This document shows positions 13,722 through 28,212 of a stretch of DNA of 36,017 nt, one piece after another; position 1 is the stretch's first letter; the number at the start of each line of letters is the position of its first letter. Below the pieces are notes generated by a model, which was given only the letters and a program-made list of their open reading frames with translations, did no database searches and was not told the DNA's origin. The DNA is taken from contig SBGQ01000105.1 in NCBI GenBank assembly GCA_006226965.1, forward strand, positions 1-36,017, read 5' to 3'. A program made the position numbers and the translations under genes. Source of the stretch: a bacterium (lineage in GTDB: Bacteria > Bacteroidota > Rhodothermia > Balneolales > M1805).

Positions 13722-16700
13722 TTAGTTACCGAAAGCTTGGCTTACTAAATTATCTTGTTCAATTTGATGCAATTTTGCGGAACCGGTTGCCGGTGATGCA
13801 GAAGCCGCACGACCCGCATATCTGAGTTTTTGACCATCAGCCAAATCATTCATAATACGAGGAGCTGCAAATGTCCAAGCGCCCATGTTTTTAGGCTCTT
13901 CTTGGCACCAAACTACATCTTTTGCATTCGGATAAGAAGCTAAAATAGCTTTCATATCCGCATCAGGGAACGGATAGAATTGCTCTAAACGAACCAAAGC
14001 CGTATCAGTAGTGGAATGGTCTTCACGATATTTAGCTAAATCGTAATACACTTTTCCGGCACTTAAAATCACACGTTTAATATCAGATTTTGATGGTGTT
14101 TCATCATCTAATAACTCGTGGAATGCTCCGTTTGCTAATTCTTCAACACTGGAAACAGCAGAAGGATGGCGTAATAAACTTTTCGGTGACATAACCACTA
14201 ATGGCTTTTTCACATCGCTTACAACCTGACGGCGTAATAAATGGAAATACTGTGCCGGAGTTGAAACGTTAACTACGCGCATATTATCTTCCGCACAAAG
14301 TTGTAAATAGCGTTCTAGGCGGGCAGATGAGTGCTCCGGACCTTGACCTTCAAATCCATGAGGCAATAACATTGTAACGGCCGTTTTTTGTCCCCATTTT
14401 GCTTCGCAACTAGAGATAAACTGGTCGATAATAATTTGTGCACCATTCGAGAAATCGCCGAATTGTGCTTCCCATAGAACCAATTGATTCAAATCGGTAG
14501 ATGAATAACCGAATTCGAAACCTAAGACAGCGAACTCACTCAAATGTGAGTTGTAAACCATGTATCGGCCTTGGTTTTCCTGAATATTGTTCAAAGGAAC
14601 ATATTTTTGAGCACTCTCTGTTCCGTGTAAAACAGAATGGCGATGAGAGAATGTACCGCGCTCAACATCTTGTCCGGTTAAGCGAACGTTACGACCTTCA
14701 ACCAAAATAGAACCGAATGCTAAAGACTCTGCAAAGCCCCATTCAATTTTCTTTTCGTTGTTTTCAACGATTTCGTGTCGCTTTGCGAGAATGCGCAATA
14801 ACTTCGGATTGGCATCAAAATCTTTAGGAACAGTAAGAATTTGTTGGCTGATTTTTTTGAGTTCATCTAATGGGAAAGATGTATCCGTTTTAGATTCACG
14901 CTCAGCTTGTTTGGTTTCTTTTCTGTCGATGAAGGAAGCCGTGTCGATGGAAGTCGTAGTTTGTTTCGCATCTTCAAAAGCTTGCTCTAAAAGTGTATTG
15001 AACTCTTCGAAGATTTCATTTACTTCATCTTTAGTTAATTGCTTTTTCTTCATTAACTCATTGGCGTAAATATCGCGAACGCTTAAATGGTCGTTAATTT
15101 CTTTGTATAGTCCCGGTTGTGTGAATGCAGGTTCGTCGCCCTCGTTGTGACCATATTTACGGTAACATATCAAATCGATAACAACGTCTTTGCTAAACTC
15201 TTGGCGATATTCTAAAGCCATTCTCATGGCATGAACAGCTGCCTCAGGCTCGTCACCGTTTACGTGGAAGATTGGCGCCATAATCGTTTTTGCGATATCC
15301 GAAGCATATGTAGTGGAACGAGCATCAACAGGAAGGGTAGTAAAACCAATTTGGTTGTTGATGATAATGTGAATAGTTCCTCCGGTTTTGTATCCGCGAA
15401 GCTGAGACATGTTTAATGTTTCTGGAACAACGCCTTGTCCGGCAAAAGCTGCATCACCATGAATGAGTAAAGGTATGATTTTTGTAGCTGCATCATCTTC
15501 CAATCTAGAATCCTGACGAGCTCTCGCAGTACCTTCAACAACAGGATTTACTGCTTCCAAATGCGATGGATTCGCTAATAATTGCAATCTGATTTCTTTA
15601 CCGGATTGTGTTTTATGGTAACCTGTGGTTCCTAAGTGATATTTAACATCGCCACTGCCTTGGAAAGTTGTCGGGTCGATGTTACCGTCAAATTCAGCAA
15701 AAACTTTATGATATTTTTTGCCCATGGTGTTAACCAATACGTTCAGGCGACCTCGGTGAGCCATACCAAGAATGACTTCTTCAACGCCTAAGTCTCCGCC
15801 TTTTTCAAGCATGTAGTCAATCATAGGAATCATGGTTTCGCCGCCTTCTAATGAGAAGCGTTTGTGGCCTACATATTTCTTATGGAGGAATTGCTCGAAA
15901 GCCATTGCCTGATTGAGTTTGTGAAGAATTTGTTTCTTCTCATCAACACTTAGTTTGGTTGTGTTTGCAGAGCTTTCCATTTTCTCGCGCAACCACTTAC
16001 GTTCGGCTAGCTCTAAAATATGCATGAACTCGGCGCCGATAAAACCACAATAAGTATCGCGTAATAATTTAACTATAACTCTGAGCGGAGCTTTTTCAAA
16101 ACCGCCTAAACCACCGCAATAAAACTCACGGTCTAAATCCCAAATGGTTAATCCGTAATAATCAAATTCTAACTCAGGGTAGTGTCCGGGGCCATGTTTT
16201 AATGGGTTTAAATCGGCTAAAAGATGTCCGCGTGTGCGGTACATGTTAATCAACTGAATTACACCAATGGCTTTTTTGTTAACTTCGCTTGAGCCATTGT
16301 CTAAGAAACCTGTGTAGTTATCTGTGCCGTAATCAATTGGCTTGTAAGGAATGTCTAAATCACCGAAAATAGAATCATAGAAATCTTCTTCACCATTCAG
16401 TAAAGCATGAATCTTTGCTAAGAATGCTCCGGATTCAGCACCTTGTATAATTCGGTGATCATAAGTTGAGGTGAATGTCATCACTTTAGAAATTCCTAAA
16501 TGATTTAGAACTTCTTGTGACATTGCCTGAAACTCAGCCGGATATTCCATAGCTCCGGTTGCAATAATCGCACCCTGACCTTTCATCAGGCGAGGAGCAG
16601 AAGAAACGGTTCCGATTGTTCCCGGATTTGTGATAGAAATTGTAGTATCGGCAAAATCTTCAACTTCTAACTTTCCGGCTCTGGCTTTAGCTATTAACGC

Positions 16701-17354
16701 ATAATAAGCAGCTAAAAACTCGTTGAAGTTCATTCTATCAACGGCTTTAATATTTGGAACAACTAAATTTCTTGCGCCGTTTTTTCCCGGTAAATCTATC
16801 GCAATTCCAAGGTTGATTTGTTTTGGCTTTACACGTGTCGGAACGCCATCAACATAATGAAGAGAATGGGAGAGAGACGGATATTCTTTAATCGCTTTAA
16901 TAACAGCCCAAGCAATAAAATTGGTAAAGGTCGCTTTTGGGTCGCCGCGTTGCTCTAAATGTCGGTTGATAATAGTTCTGTCTTCAATCAACATTTTAAC
17001 AGGAATAACTCTTAAAGAGGTAGCAGTCGGAATTTCGAGACTTTCTTCCATGTTGGTTACGATTTTAGCCGCAACGCCTTTAATTTTTTCGTATTCGTAT
17101 TTCTCTTCGTTGATATTAACCGTGTCTGCTTTCTTTGCAACTGTTTCTGCCGGTTTTATCGGTGCTGATACGGTAGTTGCACTTGGAGCGCTAATGGGTT
17201 CAGAAACCGGCATTGGAGCAGGTTCTTTGCCTAAAGATTCGTCGAAGTAGTTTCTCCAATAAGTTGGAACTGAATTTGGATTGGTTACATACTGGTTATA
17301 AAGGTCTTCAACCAAGGCCGTGTTAGGGCCAAAAATTTCTTCAAGAGATTTCAA
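13722..17354 (-). CDS. kgd: Fused 2-oxoglutarate dehydrogenase E2 core-E1 (KGD type)
   Basis: 1210 residues, close to mycobacterial KGD. Domains: a short E1 N-terminal helix (1-40; NTALVEDLYNQYVTNPNSVP), a Pro/Ala linker (about 45-85), an E2 acyltransferase core (about 88-330) with the catalytic motif DHRIIQG (His300), then a complete E1 (about 365-1210) with HRGRLNVLVN and the thiamine-diphosphate motif GDAAFAGQG (Asp634) through NNQIGFTT. No lipoyl-attachment domain is present, as in actinobacterial KGD/OdhA, so lipoyl groups must come from another E2. It decarboxylates 2-oxoglutarate in the TCA cycle, giving succinyl-CoA (or succinate semialdehyde / carboligation products described for KGD). 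It is transcribed alone; about 340 bases of leader/intergenic space lie upstream. The start is chosen because MKSLEEIFGPN matches the family N-terminus. Confidence 0.94.
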   Translation of the reverse strand: MKSLEEIFGPNTALVEDLYNQYVTNPNSVPTYWRNYFDESLGKEPAPMPVSEPISAPSATTVSAPIKPAETVAKKADTVNINEEKYEYEKIKGVAAKIVTNMEESLEIPTATSLRVIPVKMLIEDRTIINRHLEQRGDPKATFTNFIAWAVIKAIKEYPSLSHSLHYVDGVPTRVKPKQINLGIAIDLPGKNGARNLVVPNIKAVDRMNFNEFLAAYYALIAKARAGKLEVEDFADTTISITNPGTIGTVSSAPRLMKGQGAIIATGAMEYPAEFQAMSQEVLNHLGISKVMTFTSTYDHRIIQGAESGAFLAKIHALLNGEEDFYDSIFGDLDIPYKPIDYGTDNYTGFLDNGSSEVNKKAIGVIQLINMYRTRGHLLADLNPLKHGPGHYPELEFDYYGLTIWDLDREFYCGGLGGFEKAPLRVIVKLLRDTYCGFIGAEFMHILELAERKWLREKMESSANTTKLSVDEKKQILHKLNQAMAFEQFLHKKYVGHKRFSLEGGETMIPMIDYMLEKGGDLGVEEVILGMAHRGRLNVLVNTMGKKYHKVFAEFDGNIDPTTFQGSGDVKYHLGTTGYHKTQSGKEIRLQLLANPSHLEAVNPVVEGTARARQDSRLEDDAATKIIPLLIHGDAAFAGQGVVPETLNMSQLRGYKTGGTIHIIINNQIGFTTLPVDARSTTYASDIAKTIMAPIFHVNGDEPEAAVHAMRMALEYRQEFSKDVVIDLICYRKYGHNEGDEPAFTQPGLYKEINDHLSVRDIYANELMKKKQLTKDEVNEIFEEFNTLLEQAFEDAKQTTTSIDTASFIDRKETKQAERESKTDTSFPLDELKKISQQILTVPKDFDANPKLLRILAKRHEIVENNEKKIEWGFAESLAFGSILVEGRNVRLTGQDVERGTFSHRHSVLHGTESAQKYVPLNNIQENQGRYMVYNSHLSEFAVLGFEFGYSSTDLNQLVLWEAQFGDFSNGAQIIIDQFISSCEAKWGQKTAVTMLLPHGFEGQGPEHSSARLERYLQLCAEDNMRVVNVSTPAQYFHLLRRQVVSDVKKPLVVMSPKSLLRHPSAVSSVEELANGAFHELLDDETPSKSDIKRVILSAGKVYYDLAKYREDHSTTDTALVRLEQFYPFPDADMKAILASYPNAKDVVWCQEEPKNMGAWTFAAPRIMNDLADGQKLRYAGRAASASPATGSAKLHQIEQDNLVSQAFGN

Positions 17355-19080: not shown

Positions 19081-19241
19081 TTAAGATTCACGATTTTGAG
19101 TTCATCAAATAAATAAAAAATGAAAGAACTCAATTGTAAAATGAAATGAAATTTTTGAGCTTCAATTTTGCGTGATAATGCCTATCGGAATTGTCTATAT
19201 TTCGGGCGAAATTGAATCAAAAAGATAAAAAAACACAAAAT

Positions 19242-21035
19242 ATGTCAACCACTCACGGCGCTGAAACCGTTTTTTGGGACCTCAACGATTTGTACAACTC
19301 ATTAAGCAGTGAAGAGTTCAAAGCAGATAAAAAAAAGGCAGCTGAATTAGCTCAACAGTTCGAGAAAAACTGGAAGGGGAAAATGGAAACCCTCTCAGCA
19401 TCTGAGATGAAAATAATGTTGGATGAATATTCTGTTTTGGCTGATTTACTCTCAAAGTTACATTCGTATGTGTATTTAGTTTGGTCAACAGATACCATTA
19501 AAGCTGAACATGGTAAAGCTTTGGCAGAGATTGGAGATTTTTACGCTCAGTTAAGTCAGAATTTGGTTTTCTTTGATGTGGAGTGGGTTGGTGTAAGCGA
19601 TGTAAAAGCGAATGAACTCATTAATGCACCCGAATTAGCCAATGAGAAGTACTTTTTGGAAGTAAATCGCAAGATGAAGCCTTATACTTTGGATGAAAGT
19701 GCCGAGAAAATTATGGCAGCAAAATCTCCGACTGCACGTCAGGCTTGGGTTCGTTTTTTTGATGAGTTATTGGGCGCCGCTGAATTTGATTTGGATGGAA
19801 AGAAGTTATCTGAACAAGAAGTACTAAGTAAACTCCACGAAAGTGATCCTGATTTACGTAAACGTGCCGCAGATTCGTTAACCGCAACATTTTCTTCACT
19901 AAGTCGCCAATTAACGTTCATTTTTAACACTATTCTTCAGGATAAAGCTTCGAATGACGGTTTACGCAACATGCCGGATTGGATTAGTTCTAGGCATTTA
20001 GCTAATCAGATTGATGATGCTACTGTTCAAACTTTAGTTGACTCTGTGACAGAAAGTTATGGACTCGTTCAGCGTTATTATACCTTGAAAGCGAAGTTAC
20101 TCGGACTCGAAAAATTAAAAGATTATGACCGCTATGCTCCATTGTTGAAAGCCGAAACTACTATTTCTTGGGATGATGCCAGAAAAATAGTTTTAGATTC
20201 ATTCGGAGCATTTGATTCCAGAATAAAAGACATCACCGCAAAGTTTTTCGATAACAATTGGATAGATGCGGCTATTCGTCCGGGTAAGAGAAGCGGTGCG
20301 TATGCTTCCAGTTCAGCGAATTCAGTACATCCATACGTATTTATGAATTATGACGGAAAAATTCGTGATGTGCAGACATTAGCTCATGAATTGGGACATG
20401 GTGTACACATGTATTTATCGCAAAAGCAAGGGCCGCTTTTATCAGACACTCCGCTAACAACTGCTGAGACAGCATCTGTTTTTGGCGAGATGTTAGTTTT
20501 CCAAAAGTTAAAATCCGGCCTAACAGACCCCAAAGAAAAGTTAGCGCTACTTCTTGGTAAGATTGATGATACTATTGCAACGGTTTACAGACAAGTATCA
20601 ATGAATCGTTTCGAGCATTCCATTCATACAGCCAGAAGAACAGAGGGTGAACTCTCTACTGAGCGTTTTTCAGAGTTATGGAGAAAATCCCAAACCGATT
20701 TATACGGCGATTCTGTAGAATTAACGCCAAATTATGATTTGTGGTGGTGTTATATTCCGCACTTTTTGCATACGCCGGGTTATGTTTATGCCTACGCTTT
20801 TGGTGAATTATTGGTTTTAGCTTTGTATGAGTTATATAAACAAGGAAAACCGGGATTTGAAGACACTTATGTTGAACTATTAAGTGCAGGCGGCTCAAGA
20901 AAACCGGAAGAATTAGTCGGTATGTTTGGATTCGATATTCAATCCGCTGATTTTTGGAAATCCGGAATTCGAGTAGTAGAATCAATGATAGAAGAAGCTG
21001 AAGAATTAGCAACAGTGTTAGGATATGGCAATTAA
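19242..21035 (+). CDS. pepF: M3 family oligoendopeptidase F
   Basis: 597 residues from the ATG at 19242 (MSTTHGAETVFWDLNDL), which matches the family N-terminus; an upstream TTG at 19191 would add 17 poorly conserved residues and is rejected. The zinc-binding motif is HELGHG (His382, Glu383, His386) preceded by VQTLA, with the third ligand in TAETASVFGEM (Glu), and the substrate-positioning YxxxF region HTPGYVYAYAFGELL is near the C-terminus. No signal peptide, so cytoplasmic. It cleaves short peptides (roughly 5-20 residues) in peptide recycling. The stop codon overlaps the start of the next gene by 11 bases, so the two are translationally linked. Confidence 0.92.
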   Translation: MSTTHGAETVFWDLNDLYNSLSSEEFKADKKKAAELAQQFEKNWKGKMETLSASEMKIMLDEYSVLADLLSKLHSYVYLVWSTDTIKAEHGKALAEIGDFYAQLSQNLVFFDVEWVGVSDVKANELINAPELANEKYFLEVNRKMKPYTLDESAEKIMAAKSPTARQAWVRFFDELLGAAEFDLDGKKLSEQEVLSKLHESDPDLRKRAADSLTATFSSLSRQLTFIFNTILQDKASNDGLRNMPDWISSRHLANQIDDATVQTLVDSVTESYGLVQRYYTLKAKLLGLEKLKDYDRYAPLLKAETTISWDDARKIVLDSFGAFDSRIKDITAKFFDNNWIDAAIRPGKRSGAYASSSANSVHPYVFMNYDGKIRDVQTLAHELGHGVHMYLSQKQGPLLSDTPLTTAETASVFGEMLVFQKLKSGLTDPKEKLALLLGKIDDTIATVYRQVSMNRFEHSIHTARRTEGELSTERFSELWRKSQTDLYGDSVELTPNYDLWWCYIPHFLHTPGYVYAYAFGELLVLALYELYKQGKPGFEDTYVELLSAGGSRKPEELVGMFGFDIQSADFWKSGIRVVESMIEEAEELATVLGYGN

Positions 21036-22533
21036 AACAGTTCCTCAATTCAGTACTAAAAAAGACGATTTAGGGGAAAAACGAGAAGAAAAAGTTCAGA
21101 AGCAGTTTAAAATGGTGCTTTCAGAGTTAATTCAGCTCTTGAGAACATCAACTGATACAGAGACGGTTTATCTCTATTGGGTGAATAAACACCGTGGGCA
21201 ATTGGTGTTGGAATCGGTTGCTACTCGTGTTAATAATACCATGTTTCAAGATCGTGTTGCCTTCGAAAATCATTTTCTAAACGATTATTTAGATATTACA
21301 GAGCCAATTATTATTGAAGTTGGCAAACATATTTCTGCTGAACAACTCACACATTATTATAACACGGTTCCGGTTCGATACATCACCTTAATTCCATTTA
21401 TAAACAATGGAGAAACAGTTGCTGTAACAGCGCTAGAAAGCAAGTTTAACAGCTTACGAGACGATGAAGAAGAGGCGATTGAAGCGTATGCTTTGGCACT
21501 AGGACATTTGCTTCATACCTATATGGAATTAAGTGATTTGTCCGAAAATCAAGCACAATGGATTCAGTATTCTGAACAGCTTGATAAAGTATTAAACCAA
21601 AGAAATACAGTTAGTCTGATTCAACAAGCTATGCAGCTTATTCAGAAGAATATGCGTTATGGTGGAGTGAGCTTTTTAACCAGAAACTTGGAAGAATGGT
21701 CAGTTGTGGCAAATGCAGAACAAGCGTTTAATGCACTTCCACTTGGTTTAGGTCTCGATGAACAAACGATTGTGTATGAAGCACTTCAAACCGGAAAGCC
21801 TGTTTTTAATATTCATTTTAACGGAAACCCCAAGCGTGTAAATGTTGCTGAACCTATGAGTAATGGTGCTACATTAGCAGTTCCATTGCTGGTTAATGAT
21901 AGAAGGCAAGGGGTTTTTGTCTGTTATGATGAAAATCCATTGATTTTTAATGAGTCGACCAAACACAAAATTATAAACACAGTACGTTCAGTTGCATTAA
22001 AACTAGAATCGCCAAAATTTGGTTCAAGTGTAGATAAAGACTTATTCGCTGTTGTCCATGGCTTATTAGACCCTGACTTCTGGAGAGCTACTTTAGCAAC
22101 AGAAATAAAAAGAGCCAGAATCTATCCGAAAACCAAATCCTACTTTGGTTTTATGACAATTGGTGATTTGCAGTCCATTCGTTCAAAATATCGATTGGAT
22201 GATTTACAAAAAATGCAGTTCGATGTTGTTCGTTTGGCAAACCCGTCTCAACTAGGCATTGCCGGAATGTTAGGTCAGTTCTCTGATTACGTTTATGCGT
22301 TTATTATTCAGGGTACAGATGATCAAAGTATTACAAAATGGGTGAAAGCTGTAAACAAAGTATTTCAGCAACCGATTGTGATGAAGGACGGAAGTACGAA
22401 AACCATTCGAATGCATTTTGGATTTACCTATATCAGAGAAGATGTTTCTGATGAAGAACAAGTTATCAGCGAAGCAAAAACTGCACTTTCTCATGCTTTA
22501 AAGAATCCGGACGTTCCCGTTTTTGAATATTAA
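21025..22533 (+). CDS. Tandem-GAF protein with degenerate GGDEF-like domain
   Basis: 502 residues, soluble. A GAF-like domain at about 30-168 (ESVATRVNN, YITLIPFINNGETVAVTALE) is followed by a second at about 185-328 (MRYGGVSFLTRN, GATLAVPLLVNDRRQGVFVC). The C-terminal part (about 345-500) follows the GGDEF fold: a LLDPDFWRATLATEIKRARI opening, FGFMTIGDLQSIRSKYRLDD where active cyclases have IDxFKxIND, QFSDYVYAFI where GGDEF should be, MHFGFTYI for the SIG strand and AKTALSHALKN for the final ADxALYxAK helix. The metal and substrate residues are gone, so it is probably not a diguanylate cyclase but a binding or scaffold domain. The start codon lies inside the pepF 3' end (11-base overlap). 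The function is unknown; this domain reading is mine and has not been tested by profile search. Confidence 0.7.
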   Translation: MAIKTVPQFSTKKDDLGEKREEKVQKQFKMVLSELIQLLRTSTDTETVYLYWVNKHRGQLVLESVATRVNNTMFQDRVAFENHFLNDYLDITEPIIIEVGKHISAEQLTHYYNTVPVRYITLIPFINNGETVAVTALESKFNSLRDDEEEAIEAYALALGHLLHTYMELSDLSENQAQWIQYSEQLDKVLNQRNTVSLIQQAMQLIQKNMRYGGVSFLTRNLEEWSVVANAEQAFNALPLGLGLDEQTIVYEALQTGKPVFNIHFNGNPKRVNVAEPMSNGATLAVPLLVNDRRQGVFVCYDENPLIFNESTKHKIINTVRSVALKLESPKFGSSVDKDLFAVVHGLLDPDFWRATLATEIKRARIYPKTKSYFGFMTIGDLQSIRSKYRLDDLQKMQFDVVRLANPSQLGIAGMLGQFSDYVYAFIIQGTDDQSITKWVKAVNKVFQQPIVMKDGSTKTIRMHFGFTYIREDVSDEEQVISEAKTALSHALKNPDVPVFEY

Positions 22534-22556: not shown

Positions 22557-22590
22557 GGCCGTTTAATTAAAAAGTTGAACGGCTTTTTTA
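22557..22590 (+). terminator. Terminator after the pepF operon
   Basis: GCCGTTTAA (22558-22566) pairs with TTGAACGGC (22575-22583, one wobble), followed by six T. It lies 24 bases after the GAF protein stop, and its T run touches the stop codon of the convergent DUF6265 gene. Confidence 0.88.
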
Positions 22591-23106
22591 TTGGTTGGTG
22601 TAAGCGAATTTTACTTCTTCCGTTTTACCTTTGTCGTGAATTACAACGTAAATGTTTAGTTCGGTTTGCGAAACTCGCTCAAATGTGAACCCATCGAAAT
22701 AAGCTTTATTCTGTTCAAGTTTTACTAAACGGGATTCGATTTTCTCGTTTTGCTTTTCCCATCCATTTAGATTTTCGTGGAAATGTTTTAGGCGAAACAC
22801 CAAAGTGCCATTTTCTTCGGAAATCGTACAAATTTCATAGAATTCTACTTTATTGTTTGATACTAATTTAAACACACACATCATGGAATTACCGAGTGGC
22901 GGAGTCCAAAGTTCTTCTGTTTGTCCGCCAAAAGCTTCGCCTTTCCAGTGTCCGGCAATCCATGCTACATCAGTAATTGTTGCTTTAGGTGAGCCGATAG
23001 AGTCAGCATAGCTAAGTGTATGTGTTGCATTTTTTTGAGCGTGCAGTGGCGATATTGATATTAAAAACAGAACCGTGAGAAGTAAACAAGAAAAACGTGA
23101 ACCCAT
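22588..23106 (-). CDS. Exported DUF6265 family protein
   Basis: 172 residues with a signal peptide (about 1-23, ending SPLHAQ). The mature part matches the DUF6265 pattern: WIAGHWKGE at about 49-57, TEELWTPPLGNSMMCVFKLV, FYEICTISEENGTLVFRLKH, then NGWEKQNEK and a final FDGFTFERVSQ. The fold is expected to be a small lipocalin/FABP-like barrel; no biochemical role is established to my knowledge. It is a single gene, convergent with the pepF operon and divergent from deoB. The MGSRF start is the only ATG in frame near the signal peptide. Confidence 0.82.
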   Translation of the reverse strand: MGSRFSCLLLTVLFLISISPLHAQKNATHTLSYADSIGSPKATITDVAWIAGHWKGEAFGGQTEELWTPPLGNSMMCVFKLVSNNKVEFYEICTISEENGTLVFRLKHFHENLNGWEKQNEKIESRLVKLEQNKAYFDGFTFERVSQTELNIYVVIHDKGKTEEVKFAYTNQ

Positions 23107-23246: not shown

Positions 23247-24413
23247 ATGGGAAATTTTTATTTAGTTGTACTTGATGGAGTTGGATGCGGACATCAGGAA
23301 GATGCCGGCGATTACGGCGATTTCGGCTCAAATACACTCGGACATGTAAGCGCTGTTACTCAAGTTCAATTACCGAATATGCAGAAATTGGGATTGGGAA
23401 ATATTATCCCGCTAGATTCTGTTCCGCCAGTGAAAAACCCCATTGCATCAGTTGGAAAAATGCGCGAGGTATCGAAAGGTAAAGATTCAACTACCGGACA
23501 TTGGGAAATAGCCGGTGTGCAACTAGAACAACCGTTTCCAACCTATCCGAACGGTTTTCCAGATTCAGTTTTAGCTGATTTTATGCAAGCTACAGGCACA
23601 AATCAGGTTTTGGCTAATAAACCATATTCAGGAACAACGGTGATTGATTTGTTTGGTGAAGAGCACATGAAAACGGGTCAGCCTATTGTGTATACATCTG
23701 CCGATTCAGTGTTTCAAATTGCTGCGCATATTGACGTTGTACCACTAGATAAACTTTATGAATGGTGTGATATCGCCAGAAATCAAATCATGCAAGGCGA
23801 GCATTTGGTCGGTAGGGTAATTGCTCGTCCATTTAAAGGAAAACCGGGTGCTTTTGAGCGTGTTTCAGAAAAAAGAAAAGATTATTCGGCTGTTCCTCCA
23901 AAACATGCACTTCCAGAACATTTGCTGTCTTGTGGAATCAAGACCTATTCAATCGGAAAAATTGTTGATTTATTTGCGGGAGTTGGTTTTAATCAATACA
24001 GAAAAACAACCAATAATGCAGAAGGTATTGCGCAGTTATTAAGTGCAATGAAAGCAGTAGAGGAAAGTTTTGTATTTGTGAATTTAATTGATTTCGACCA
24101 ATTATTTGGACATCGTTTAGATCCTCAGGGTTTTGCAGGTTCTTTGGAAGAGTTCGACCGGGCAGTTCCGGCAATCGTTAATAATTTGAAAGCTGATGAT
24201 GTTTTGGTGATTACTGCCGACCATGGAAACGACCCTGTTGGAACCAATACAGATCATGCAAGAGAATTTGTTCCCTTGGTTGTACTTGCAGAGAATCAGG
24301 ATTTAGCAAAGGATTTAGGCACAAGAGAAACGTTTTCCGATTTAGCTGCAACAGTTTGTAGTTATTTCAAGGTTGAAAACCCTTACACCGCTTTTGCAAA
24401 ACCATTGTTTTAA
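23247..24413 (+). CDS. deoB: Phosphopentomutase
   Basis: 388 residues, the usual size of DeoB. Metal and catalytic motifs of the alkaline-phosphatase superfamily are present: VVLDGVGCG near the N-terminus, KGKDSTTGHWEIAG (phosphorylated Thr region), DFDQLFGHRLDPQGFA, ADHGNDP and TDHAREFVPL. It interconverts ribose-1-phosphate or deoxyribose-1-phosphate with the 5-phosphates in nucleoside salvage, in the cytoplasm. No deoA/C/D or other nucleoside gene is beside it in the window. The start ATG follows an A/T-rich leader; the deoB-DUF6265 divergent space is 140 bases. No obvious terminator follows. Confidence 0.95.
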   Translation: MGNFYLVVLDGVGCGHQEDAGDYGDFGSNTLGHVSAVTQVQLPNMQKLGLGNIIPLDSVPPVKNPIASVGKMREVSKGKDSTTGHWEIAGVQLEQPFPTYPNGFPDSVLADFMQATGTNQVLANKPYSGTTVIDLFGEEHMKTGQPIVYTSADSVFQIAAHIDVVPLDKLYEWCDIARNQIMQGEHLVGRVIARPFKGKPGAFERVSEKRKDYSAVPPKHALPEHLLSCGIKTYSIGKIVDLFAGVGFNQYRKTTNNAEGIAQLLSAMKAVEESFVFVNLIDFDQLFGHRLDPQGFAGSLEEFDRAVPAIVNNLKADDVLVITADHGNDPVGTNTDHAREFVPLVVLAENQDLAKDLGTRETFSDLAATVCSYFKVENPYTAFAKPLF

Positions 24414-24583: not shown

Positions 24584-25468
24584 GTGGCAAGACAAAAGAA
24601 AAAAGATGCGAATAATTTTTCCTCGAGTGGGATATCCATTCGTGAGTCGCAATCTTTAGAGCGATACTTGCAGGAAATCAGTAAAGTGCCTTTGATTACG
24701 GCAGATGATGAGGTGCGATTAGCGCGTGAAATTCAGGCCGGAAGTCAAGAAGCGTTGGAAGAACTCACCAAAGCAAATCTCCGATTCGTTATTTCAGTTG
24801 CGAAGCAGTACCAAAATCAAGGCCTTTCACTTATCGATTTAATCAATGAAGGCAATATCGGACTAATAAAGGCTGCTAAACGATTTGACGAAACACGTGG
24901 CTTCAAATTTATTTCATATGCCGTTTGGTGGATTAAACAATCCATTTTACAGGCATTGGCTGAAAACTCAAGAACAGTTCGTTTGCCACTGAATAAAATT
25001 GGTGAAATTTCAAAAATCAACAAAGAATATGCAAAACTAGAGCAGATTTTAAACAGAGAACCAACCCCGGCTGAGCTTGCAGAAGCATTAGAAATGACTG
25101 AGTCGGATGTTAGCGCTCTAAAGAAATATTCTGCCGGTGATGTATCCGTTCATTCTCCGTTTTCTCAAGGTGAAGAAAGCACACTTCTGGATGTTATGGA
25201 AAACAAGGAAACTCCAAACCCGGACAATGAACTCATAAGTGAGTCGTTGAAAATGGACATTGAACGAGCATTATCAAAATTAACTGAACGAGAAGCCGAT
25301 GTGGTTCGTTTATATTTTGGAATTGGTACTGATCACGCCGCAACTTTAGAAGAAATAGGCGAAAAATTTGATCTCACTCGTGAACGAGTTCGACAAATTA
25401 AAGAAAAAGCGTTGCGTAAGTTACGTCATCATAACCGTTCTTTAGCTTTAAAAACATACATCGGATAA
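24584..25468 (+). CDS. rpoD: Primary-type RNA polymerase sigma-70 factor (paralog 1)
   Basis: 294 residues, GTG start ([11 protein letters not shown]), no ATG suitable. It has the compact Bacteroidetes RpoD layout without region 1.1: region 1.2 ([18 protein letters not shown]), region 2 ([40 protein letters not shown]), region 3 (about 120-205) and region 4 ([20 protein letters not shown]) with the -35-binding helix. It matches the canonical sequence of Bacteroidetes RpoD more closely than the next gene does, so it is the better candidate for the housekeeping factor. 170 bases lie upstream; TATTTTTG in that space fits the -7 TAnnTTTG pattern but lacks an obvious -33 TTG. Followed after 59 bases by a second sigma gene. 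Confidence 0.92.
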
Positions 25469-25527: not shown

Positions 25528-26406
25528 ATGGCAAGAAAAAAAAGAGAAGCAGCATCTCTGGCAACAAGTGGAATTTCAATTGCGGAATCAAAAGCAATTG
25601 ATTTGTACTTAAAAGAGATTTCAAAACTGCCTCTGATTACAGCCGAAGAAGAAGTAATACTCGCAAGAAAAATTCAAGCCGGTGATAAAGCCGCTTTGGA
25701 CAAATTAATCACGTCAAACTTACGTTTCGTTGTTTCTGTTGCTAAACAATATCAGAACCAAGGTTTATCATTAATTGACCTTATCAACGAAGGTAACGTG
25801 GGTTTGATTAAAGCTGCACACCGTTTCGATGAAACTCGTGGTTTTAAATTTATTTCATATGCAGTATGGTGGATTAAGCAGTCAATCCGTCAGGCTTTAG
25901 ATGAAAAAGCTAAAACTGTTCGTCTGCCTTTGAATAAAGCCGCTGATATTATGAAACTCAGCAAGGCTCGTTTCAAGCTAAACCAAATTTACAAGCGTGA
26001 ACCTTCTGTTGGTGAATTGGCTGATGAAACAGGATTTACAGAAACCTATATCGCAGATTTGATGCGCTATGCATCATCAGATGTTTCTTTCGACAGTCCG
26101 TTTGCTACCGGTGAAGATTCTACTTTATTGGATGTAATGGCCAATCAGGATACACCCGATCCTGATAACGAATTGATGAAAGATTCCTTGAAAATGGAAA
26201 TCGAACGTGCATTTTCTAAGCTAACTCAACGCGAAGCTGAAGTAGTGCGTCTCTATTTTGGAATCGGACGTGAGCACTCTTTAACACTTGAAGAAATTGG
26301 TGAGCGTTTTGATTTAACACGTGAACGTGTACGCCAAATTAAAGAAAAAGCATTGCGTAAATTGCGTCACAATTCAAGAAATTCAGTGTTGCTTACTTAT
26401 ATCTAA
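25528..26406 (+). CDS. Primary-type RNA polymerase sigma-70 factor (paralog 2)
   Basis: 292 residues, start ATG with [20 protein letters not shown]. Same domain order as the gene before it, with a nearly identical -10 helix ([14 protein letters not shown]) and an identical -35 recognition helix ([20 protein letters not shown]). Differences cluster in regions 1.2 and 3 ([20 protein letters not shown]). Likely arose by tandem duplication and should recognise very similar promoters; a group 2 (stationary-phase or stress) role is plausible but unproven. The 59-base gap has no terminator, so the pair is probably co-transcribed. A terminator follows the stop. Confidence 0.92.
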
Positions 26407-27282: not shown

Positions 27283-28212
27283 CTACCAATATTTTTCTAA
27301 GTCATTGCTGGGCTTCCATTTATCCTGTGGTTCGAAATATTCATACAAGGTTCTTGATACTTCGCGGATAAATACAAAACCGGGATCATTATAATCAAAA
27401 GATTGTTTTTTTTGTTGATCTGTAATCACACAAAAGAAATAAGTTCCGTGTTCTGCTTGTACTCCAACAACTTCAGATTTGGAACGCGCAATGGCGCCTT
27501 GCTTAGAAAGCATAAATGTGTTCGGTGGAATTTGACTCAAGGCTTCACCGTCCCAATAACTTCGGGATAAAATGCGAATCATTTTTTCACTAGCGTCTTT
27601 TGAAACGAATTTTTTATCATAAATACCCAAAAGCAAATCAGTCATTTCTCTCGGCGTTGTAGTACCCCAACCATGGCGCATTTCAAACCATTCTCGACCG
27701 TACGTTTTAGTGTTTACTCTTGTGTGGATAAATCCATTAGTTTTCAGCCAATCATTGATAGCAACGCCATAACCTGCAACATCCTGCAGCCATATACTGG
27801 CAGAATTATCACTAAAAATGAGCATAAGATTCAGCAATTTATTAATGCTTATTTTCGAACCCATCTCAAAACTGTTTACAATATCTGTATCGTAAGGGTA
27901 GGCATAGTTTTTTTGATAGGTTAGTTCATCATTAATATCCAACTCACCTTGTTCTATGCGGTCGAAAATTCGCAATAAGATTGGAATTTTTATCATACTG
28001 GCGCTAGGGTATAAGGAATCCTGATTTATTCCGGCAACAACGCCTTTGTCTTTGTGATACACGTAAATTCCGGCAACACCTTCAAATTCACTAACCATCA
28101 TTTCTAATTTTTTTTGTAACACGAAGTCTGTTTTATGTTTTGGGGCTTGTGCAAAAACACCGCCTGAAAACACAACATCAACTAACAAAAAAAAGGCAAC
28201 GACTAATTTCAT
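27283..28212 (-). CDS. Class A beta-lactamase-fold serine hydrolase (exported)
   Basis: 309 residues with a signal peptide (about 1-22, ending VFAQ). Motifs of the penicillin-binding/class A family: SMIK (Ser72, Lys75), SDN (Ser134-Asn136), TTTPREM and a KQG in place of KTG. The omega-loop ExxLN of true class A beta-lactamases is not evident (the region reads GREWFEMRHGWG), so efficient deacylation of beta-lactams is doubtful. It may act as a peptidase or a peptide/amide hydrolase of the Beta-lactamase2 family. The stop codon abuts that of the esterase with no gap and no terminator. Start ATG fits the signal peptide. Confidence 0.82.
   Translation of the reverse strand: MKLVVAFFLLVDVVFSGGVFAQAPKHKTDFVLQKKLEMMVSEFEGVAGIYVYHKDKGVVAGINQDSLYPSASMIKIPILLRIFDRIEQGELDINDELTYQKNYAYPYDTDIVNSFEMGSKISINKLLNLMLIFSDNSASIWLQDVAGYGVAINDWLKTNGFIHTRVNTKTYGREWFEMRHGWGTTTPREMTDLLLGIYDKKFVSKDASEKMIRILSRSYWDGEALSQIPPNTFMLSKQGAIARSKSEVVGVQAEHGTYFFCVITDQQKKQSFDYNDPGFVFIREVSRTLYEYFEPQDKWKPSNDLEKYW

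Follow-up and report, generated by a model that had tools for sequence, protein, structure and literature searches.

A tandem-GAF protein with a degenerate GGDEF fold, conserved in Balneolales and with relatives across much of the phylum

A GGDEF domain is normally taken as a sign of c-di-GMP signalling. What, then, should be made of a protein that keeps the fold of this domain and has lost its signature, as encoded by a gene, here called gafX, in a 36,017-nt stretch of a Balneolales genome (contig SBGQ01000105.1, the window in what follows)? A first-pass annotation, made from the letters of the DNA, had proposed two GAF domains followed by a pseudo-GGDEF domain, coupled to an oligopeptidase gene, and had imagined a reader of some peptide- or nucleotide-linked signal. 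Our best guess is a putative regulator or scaffold reading a small molecule other than c-di-GMP. The gene, its domains and its closest neighbours are the following:

19191-21035, plus strand: pepF, M3-family oligoendopeptidase, the conserved upstream neighbour in the order (TIGR02290, 617 bits, over the cut-off)
21025-22533, plus strand: gafX, tandem-GAF and pseudo-GGDEF protein of 502 aa (open reading frame, Pfam, AlphaFold model)
21082-21519, plus strand: GAF domain 1, residues 20-165 (secondary structure of the model, tandem-GAF fold matches)
21607-22011, plus strand: GAF domain 2, residues 195-329 (Pfam PF01590, model)
22042-22530, plus strand: degenerate GGDEF-fold domain, residues 340-502 (match to 4iob, hhalign)
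22159-22173, plus strand: IGDLQ in place of the metal-binding IDxFK
22282-22296, plus strand: SDYVY in place of GG(D/E)EF
22588-23106, minus strand: DUF6265 gene, between gafX and deoB
23247-24413, plus strand: deoB, phosphopentomutase, the closest downstream neighbour in relatives (TIGR01696, over the cut-off)
24584-25468, plus strand: first of two RpoD-type sigma-70 factors in tandem, with homologues downstream of gafX in relatives
25528-26406, plus strand: second RpoD-type sigma-70 factor

In the window, the ATG of gafX at 21025 lies, as had been annotated, inside the coding end of pepF; the overlap is 11 nt. Since a start at the next in-frame ATG (21112) would lose the family-conserved residues R20, F28 and K29, position 21025 is the likely start. 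Profile searches with the protein recovered a GAF domain (PF01590, E 2.7e-9, 38.1 bits against a cut-off of 22.4, best stretch 197-311), whereas Pfam gave no GGDEF match (PF00990) over the curated cut-off, either in the protein or in its whole genome. No NCBIfam family matched gafX, a sequence search of the PDB returned just a CBS-domain protein at E 0.02, and no membrane-like segment was detected in the protein. The structural comparison was more informative. An AlphaFold model computed from 64 orthologues (mean pLDDT 89.7, pTM 0.70) showed a GAF-GAF-GGDEF layout whose GAF domains are flanked by long helices (146-190, 310-328 and 350-366). In this model residues 344-502 superposed on the GGDEF domain of YfiN (4iob) with a Z of 20.5 and an rmsd of 1.9 over 155 residues (VIA-align), at a sequence identity of 12%. 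In this line, hhalign against 15 canonical GGDEF domains of the phylum gave a probability of 74% and an E of 2.8e-5 for columns 346-497, and the best whole-chain matches in Foldseek were phytochrome/GAF diguanylate cyclases and tandem-GAF proteins. The first among them is the phytochrome diguanylate cyclase of Idiomarina (5llw), which likewise carries serial sensor domains before its GGDEF domain but is, by its entry title, a light-activated cyclase, and which shares just 11-12% identity with gafX. As modelled, the C-terminal domain of gafX is a GGDEF fold; residues 345-500 could have been predicted as something unrelated and were not, and the proposed domain order was thus borne out.

The fold is kept and the chemistry seems to be gone. 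The annotated substitutions, QFSDYV for the signature and IGDLQ for IDxFK, agree to within one residue of register with our alignment, where SDYVY takes the place of the motif and the DIDxFK position reads TIGDLQ. The GGDEF motif was found in none of 136 family sequences (0/60 from the phylum, 0/12 from Rhodothermia and 0/64 from Balneolales); the controls recovered it in 15/15 canonical cyclase domains and in 29 of 31 control loci. Among the 64 Balneolales sequences, the position of the strand 1 metal Asp is variable (E in 24, D in 16, others in the rest), and the signature reads S-D-Y-V-Y or near it, with D at the second position in 62. Of the 60 phylum sequences, 57 keep one metal-site Asp. 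By the motif and the metal site, gafX is predicted not to be an active diguanylate cyclase. The inhibitory site (I-site) has fared no better in the order, with Gly replacing its Arg in 58 of 64 sequences and its Asp in 63, and gafX, judged by the RxxD expected before the motif, does not qualify as an I-site receptor of c-di-GMP.

Despite these losses the dead domain is not drifting freely. Values of dN/dS were listed for 14 of 53 pairs, and in six of the seven listed pairs with dS <1, three of the six sharing species, the dead domain gave 0.03-0.20, which indicates that it is under purifying selection; the seventh pair gave 0.41 at a dS of only 0.04. A decaying remnant was therefore rejected. 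The domain nevertheless evolves faster than the GAF domains, with a mean top-residue frequency of 0.48 against 0.61 and 0.61, and of its 159 columns 14 reach a conservation of 90% or more, Q398, D421 and W439 among them. Conserved positions in the sensor part (H264, N266, P269 and E276, invariant in GAF2; W52, N54 and R57 in GAF1) suggest ligand or fold constraints.

Could gafX still read c-di-GMP? In the 40 high-quality Balneolales genomes (completeness of 90% or more, contamination no higher than 5%), profiles for GGDEF (PF00990), EAL (PF00563) and PilZ (PF07238) each found nothing, and each matched in just one of all 59 relatives; control genomes were positive in the same searches. The only GGDEF and EAL matches among the 59 relatives sit in one 1064-aa frame (contig C329 of G037, locus L222), possibly a contaminant in a genome with 4% contamination. 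In another Balneolales genome, G093, a match to GGDEF was borderline (E 9.6e-4). Because none of the 40 genomes holds GGDEF, EAL or PilZ and the I-site is lost, we consider c-di-GMP reading by gafX in Balneolales very unlikely, and a c-di-GMP receptor was dropped as a candidate for the order; the nucleotide-linked signal that had been entertained at the outset is thus very unlikely to be c-di-GMP.

Degenerate GGDEF proteins that serve as receptors through the I-site are known, as in PelD and PopA (PMC7112168, PMC5052742, as far as the consulted text of these sources goes), and the same kind of binding at an inhibitory site could be proposed for gafX. In other classes of the phylum the I-site is indeed often kept (Arg in 34 and Asp in 45 of 60 sequences), GGDEF matches number 6-9 in some of those genomes, with canonical motifs among them, and members outside Balneolales that retain RxxD could, by sequence, still bind c-di-GMP. 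With both residues replaced by Gly in nearly all Balneolales sequences, and an order devoid of GGDEF, EAL and PilZ, this explanation of gafX is nonetheless exceedingly improbable. PelD, as described in the part of PMC7112168 consulted, combines a membrane region, a GAF domain and a degenerate GGDEF domain, belongs to a polysaccharide operon and binds c-di-GMP by an intact RxxD; on that description gafX differs from it in having no RxxD, two GAF domains, no membrane-like segment and a locus with deoB and rpoD. There are parallels in other bacteria as well. According to the portion of PMC9239204 at hand, Campylobacter subgroup II proteins carry a degenerate GGDEF domain and an I-site that is likewise degenerate, and their genomes lack active cyclases and EAL/HD-GYP. 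This resembles the situation of gafX, although in another phylum. GdpS of staphylococci, in the consulted part of PMC9714401, is the sole GGDEF-domain protein of genomes without EAL, HD-GYP or PilZ and acts without c-di-GMP; its GGDEF domain is conserved, unlike that of gafX, and that text describes for it neither a GAF pair nor an rpoD/deoB locus, both of which gafX has.

The gene is a stable component of the order. A single copy of gafX was found in 57 of the 59 relatives (Balneolales, including Balneola, Gracilimonas, Fodinibius, Rhodohalobacter and others) and in all 40 high-quality genomes, which rules out a chance overlap or a spurious reading frame, and 72 of the 74 named loci encode a member of the family with 300 aa or more. 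The arrangement across the order is pepF-gafX-deoB, usually followed by rpoD. Leaving aside two loci with no full-length frame (L069 and L125) and three with too little upstream flank, and with L071 dropped from both pepF counts for an artefactual distance, pepF ends at most 300 nt from gafX in 67 of the 69 loci with enough upstream sequence, one Balneolales locus having a 3.5-kb gap instead. On the other side, deoB starts at most 300 nt from gafX in 67 of the 69 loci with enough downstream sequence; its start and the gafX stop have a base in common at 16 of the 69, and at L065 and L070 no deoB was found. Of the 53 loci with at least 4 kb of downstream sequence, 47 carry an rpoD gene there in the same orientation. 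In the window, the gap of 713 nt between gafX and deoB, which holds the DUF6265 gene, departs from this otherwise tight junction; the DUF6265 gene had no match at the relatives' loci compared.

The overlap with pepF had been offered as a hint of a function next to the peptidase. Its conservation proved to be a matter of linkage: pepF stays close in nearly every locus, but the overlap itself occurs in 8 of 69 and is uncommon. A peptide- or PepF-linked sensor would account for that closeness within Balneolales; it is poorly served by the wider family, where the two class-level homologues adjoin deoB and not pepF, and where no BLAST match to pepF was found within a few kb of flank in the first 40 loci of other families. 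On these grounds pepF as the defining partner was discarded, deoB and rpoD being the more widely shared neighbours, and the suggestion of a sensor working with PepF looks very improbable.

How far does the family reach? Hits to the Balneolales profile (E up to 1e-3) came from 52 members of the order, from 2 further genomes within its class and from 38 outside that class but within the phylum. The first 18 remote homologues all matched the Balneolales HMM (E 1.5e-38 to 9e-10), mostly end to end, the exceptions being L165, which matched near the start only, and the two proteins L162 and L167, whose matches were each split into two segments. Proteins at the first 40 remote loci are 541 to 841 aa long, and many remote homologues have an N-terminal membrane-like segment. 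The six other-class homologues that were scanned all passed the Pfam cut-offs for GAF and GGDEF, and the two class-level ones scored under the GGDEF cut-off. A broader search of the phylum gave 331/389 hits, many of them weak and generic GAF/GGDEF matches, with about 159 at E <1e-75 by hand count. The 2 class-level and 38 phylum-level hits, together with 20 chosen for spread from the broader search, make up the 60 phylum loci referred to throughout, which span 20 families outside Balneolales. As an illustration that overstates the share and is not a rate, of 48 chosen phylum genomes (six GGDEF-rich ones with 6-9 matches, G170, G174, G178, G182, G264 and G270, being excluded) 46 had a GGDEF match, which in 42 was the family gene alone and in 4 was accompanied by one more, and 2 had none. 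No literature on this family was recognised from titles and abstract openings in open-licence PMC. What appears new, within these literature searches, is a largely syntenic family over much of the phylum with the enzyme motif lost in every member examined.

Of the 60 phylum loci, 34 (from 14 families) have an rpoD-type gene downstream in the same orientation and 23 (from 8 families) have deoB so placed; neither was ever found upstream or on the opposite strand in the 60, and profile scans of ten representative phylum loci name both genes. Upstream of the family gene, ndk and sucD recur in 17 and 14 phylum loci, L159 included, and NUDIX and NlpC/P60 genes also recur nearby. The link to rpoD is not universal, for 26 of the 60 loci have no rpoD in the stretch examined. 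Moreover, genes with housekeeping functions can remain side by side even if none acts on another, and the neighbours seen in this family (pepF, deoB, rpoD, ndk, sucD) are of this kind. A real GAF/pseudo-GGDEF regulator could accordingly be a passenger of a stable chromosome segment, with its target elsewhere. This explanation draws on the broken linkage just described; the constancy of order and strand wherever deoB (23/23) or rpoD (34/34) occurs, and the base shared by gafX and deoB at some Balneolales junctions, argue against it, and we regard it as rather unlikely.

Another possibility is a dedicated regulator of DeoB, where gafX would sense a pentose phosphate or nucleoside and adjust the activity or amount of phosphopentomutase. 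As seen above, deoB is the nearest gene to gafX within the order, and 8 other families have it downstream as well. In other families of Rhodothermia the gene ahead of deoB encodes, at about 10 of 20 loci, a protein with a single GAF domain and a degenerate GGDEF domain, mostly with a membrane-like start, a layout which that of PelD, on the partial text cited before, resembles. No rpoD was found near deoB in those 20 loci, within flanks of a few kb. Across the phylum, however, 37 of the 60 loci have no deoB in view and several adjoin rpoD instead, so that an exclusive role in DeoB control seems quite unlikely.

The presence of relatives across the phylum, often beside a sigma factor and even in genomes without a c-di-GMP system, suggests that the dead GGDEF fold has been retained to serve another regulatory function. 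In the explanation that we favour, and to which as a whole we give a probability of roughly one half, gafX is the soluble form, found in Balneolales, of an old family that extends over much of the phylum and whose two GAF sensor domains are linked through helices to a GGDEF-fold domain unable to make c-di-GMP. On this reading gafX is a tandem-GAF sensor, and its dead GGDEF fold would serve as a binding output directed at transcription or at nucleoside/pentose metabolism. The GAF domains would bind a cytoplasmic metabolite, plausibly from nucleotide or pentose pathways given the adjoining deoB and the ndk of relatives; binding would shift the helical linkers and alter the contact of the GGDEF-fold domain, probably acting as a dimer, with a protein partner. 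The most likely target would be transcription (RpoD/RNA polymerase) or DeoB, and gafX might in this manner adjust growth to the nucleotide status of the cell while catalysing nothing itself. A more specific version is unlikely as a whole: a regulator with the GGDEF fold that works independently of c-di-GMP and goes back to an early ancestor of the phylum, whose tandem GAF domains would read nucleotide or pentose status and whose dead fold, often the sole GGDEF domain of its genome, would bind and act directly on the housekeeping sigma factor or RNA polymerase.

An order without detectable c-di-GMP enzymes thus keeps one dead GGDEF fold under purifying selection, which makes gafX a concrete candidate for a role of this fold without its chemistry, and its nearness to deoB and rpoD offers testable partner candidates. 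Within the wider family, four loci (L164, L165, L167 and L171) encode proteins of 700-805 aa with two genes of 325-361 aa just upstream, one scanned example of which matches DUF6263. Elsewhere in the window, positions 13722-17354 (minus strand) encode a 2-oxoglutarate dehydrogenase E1 with the catalytic domain of a 2-oxoacid dehydrogenase acyltransferase (E2) on its N-terminal side, and positions 27283-28212 (minus strand) a protein of the beta-lactamase fold (PF13354, E 1.2e-38), possibly a serine beta-lactamase or a relative of the penicillin-binding proteins.
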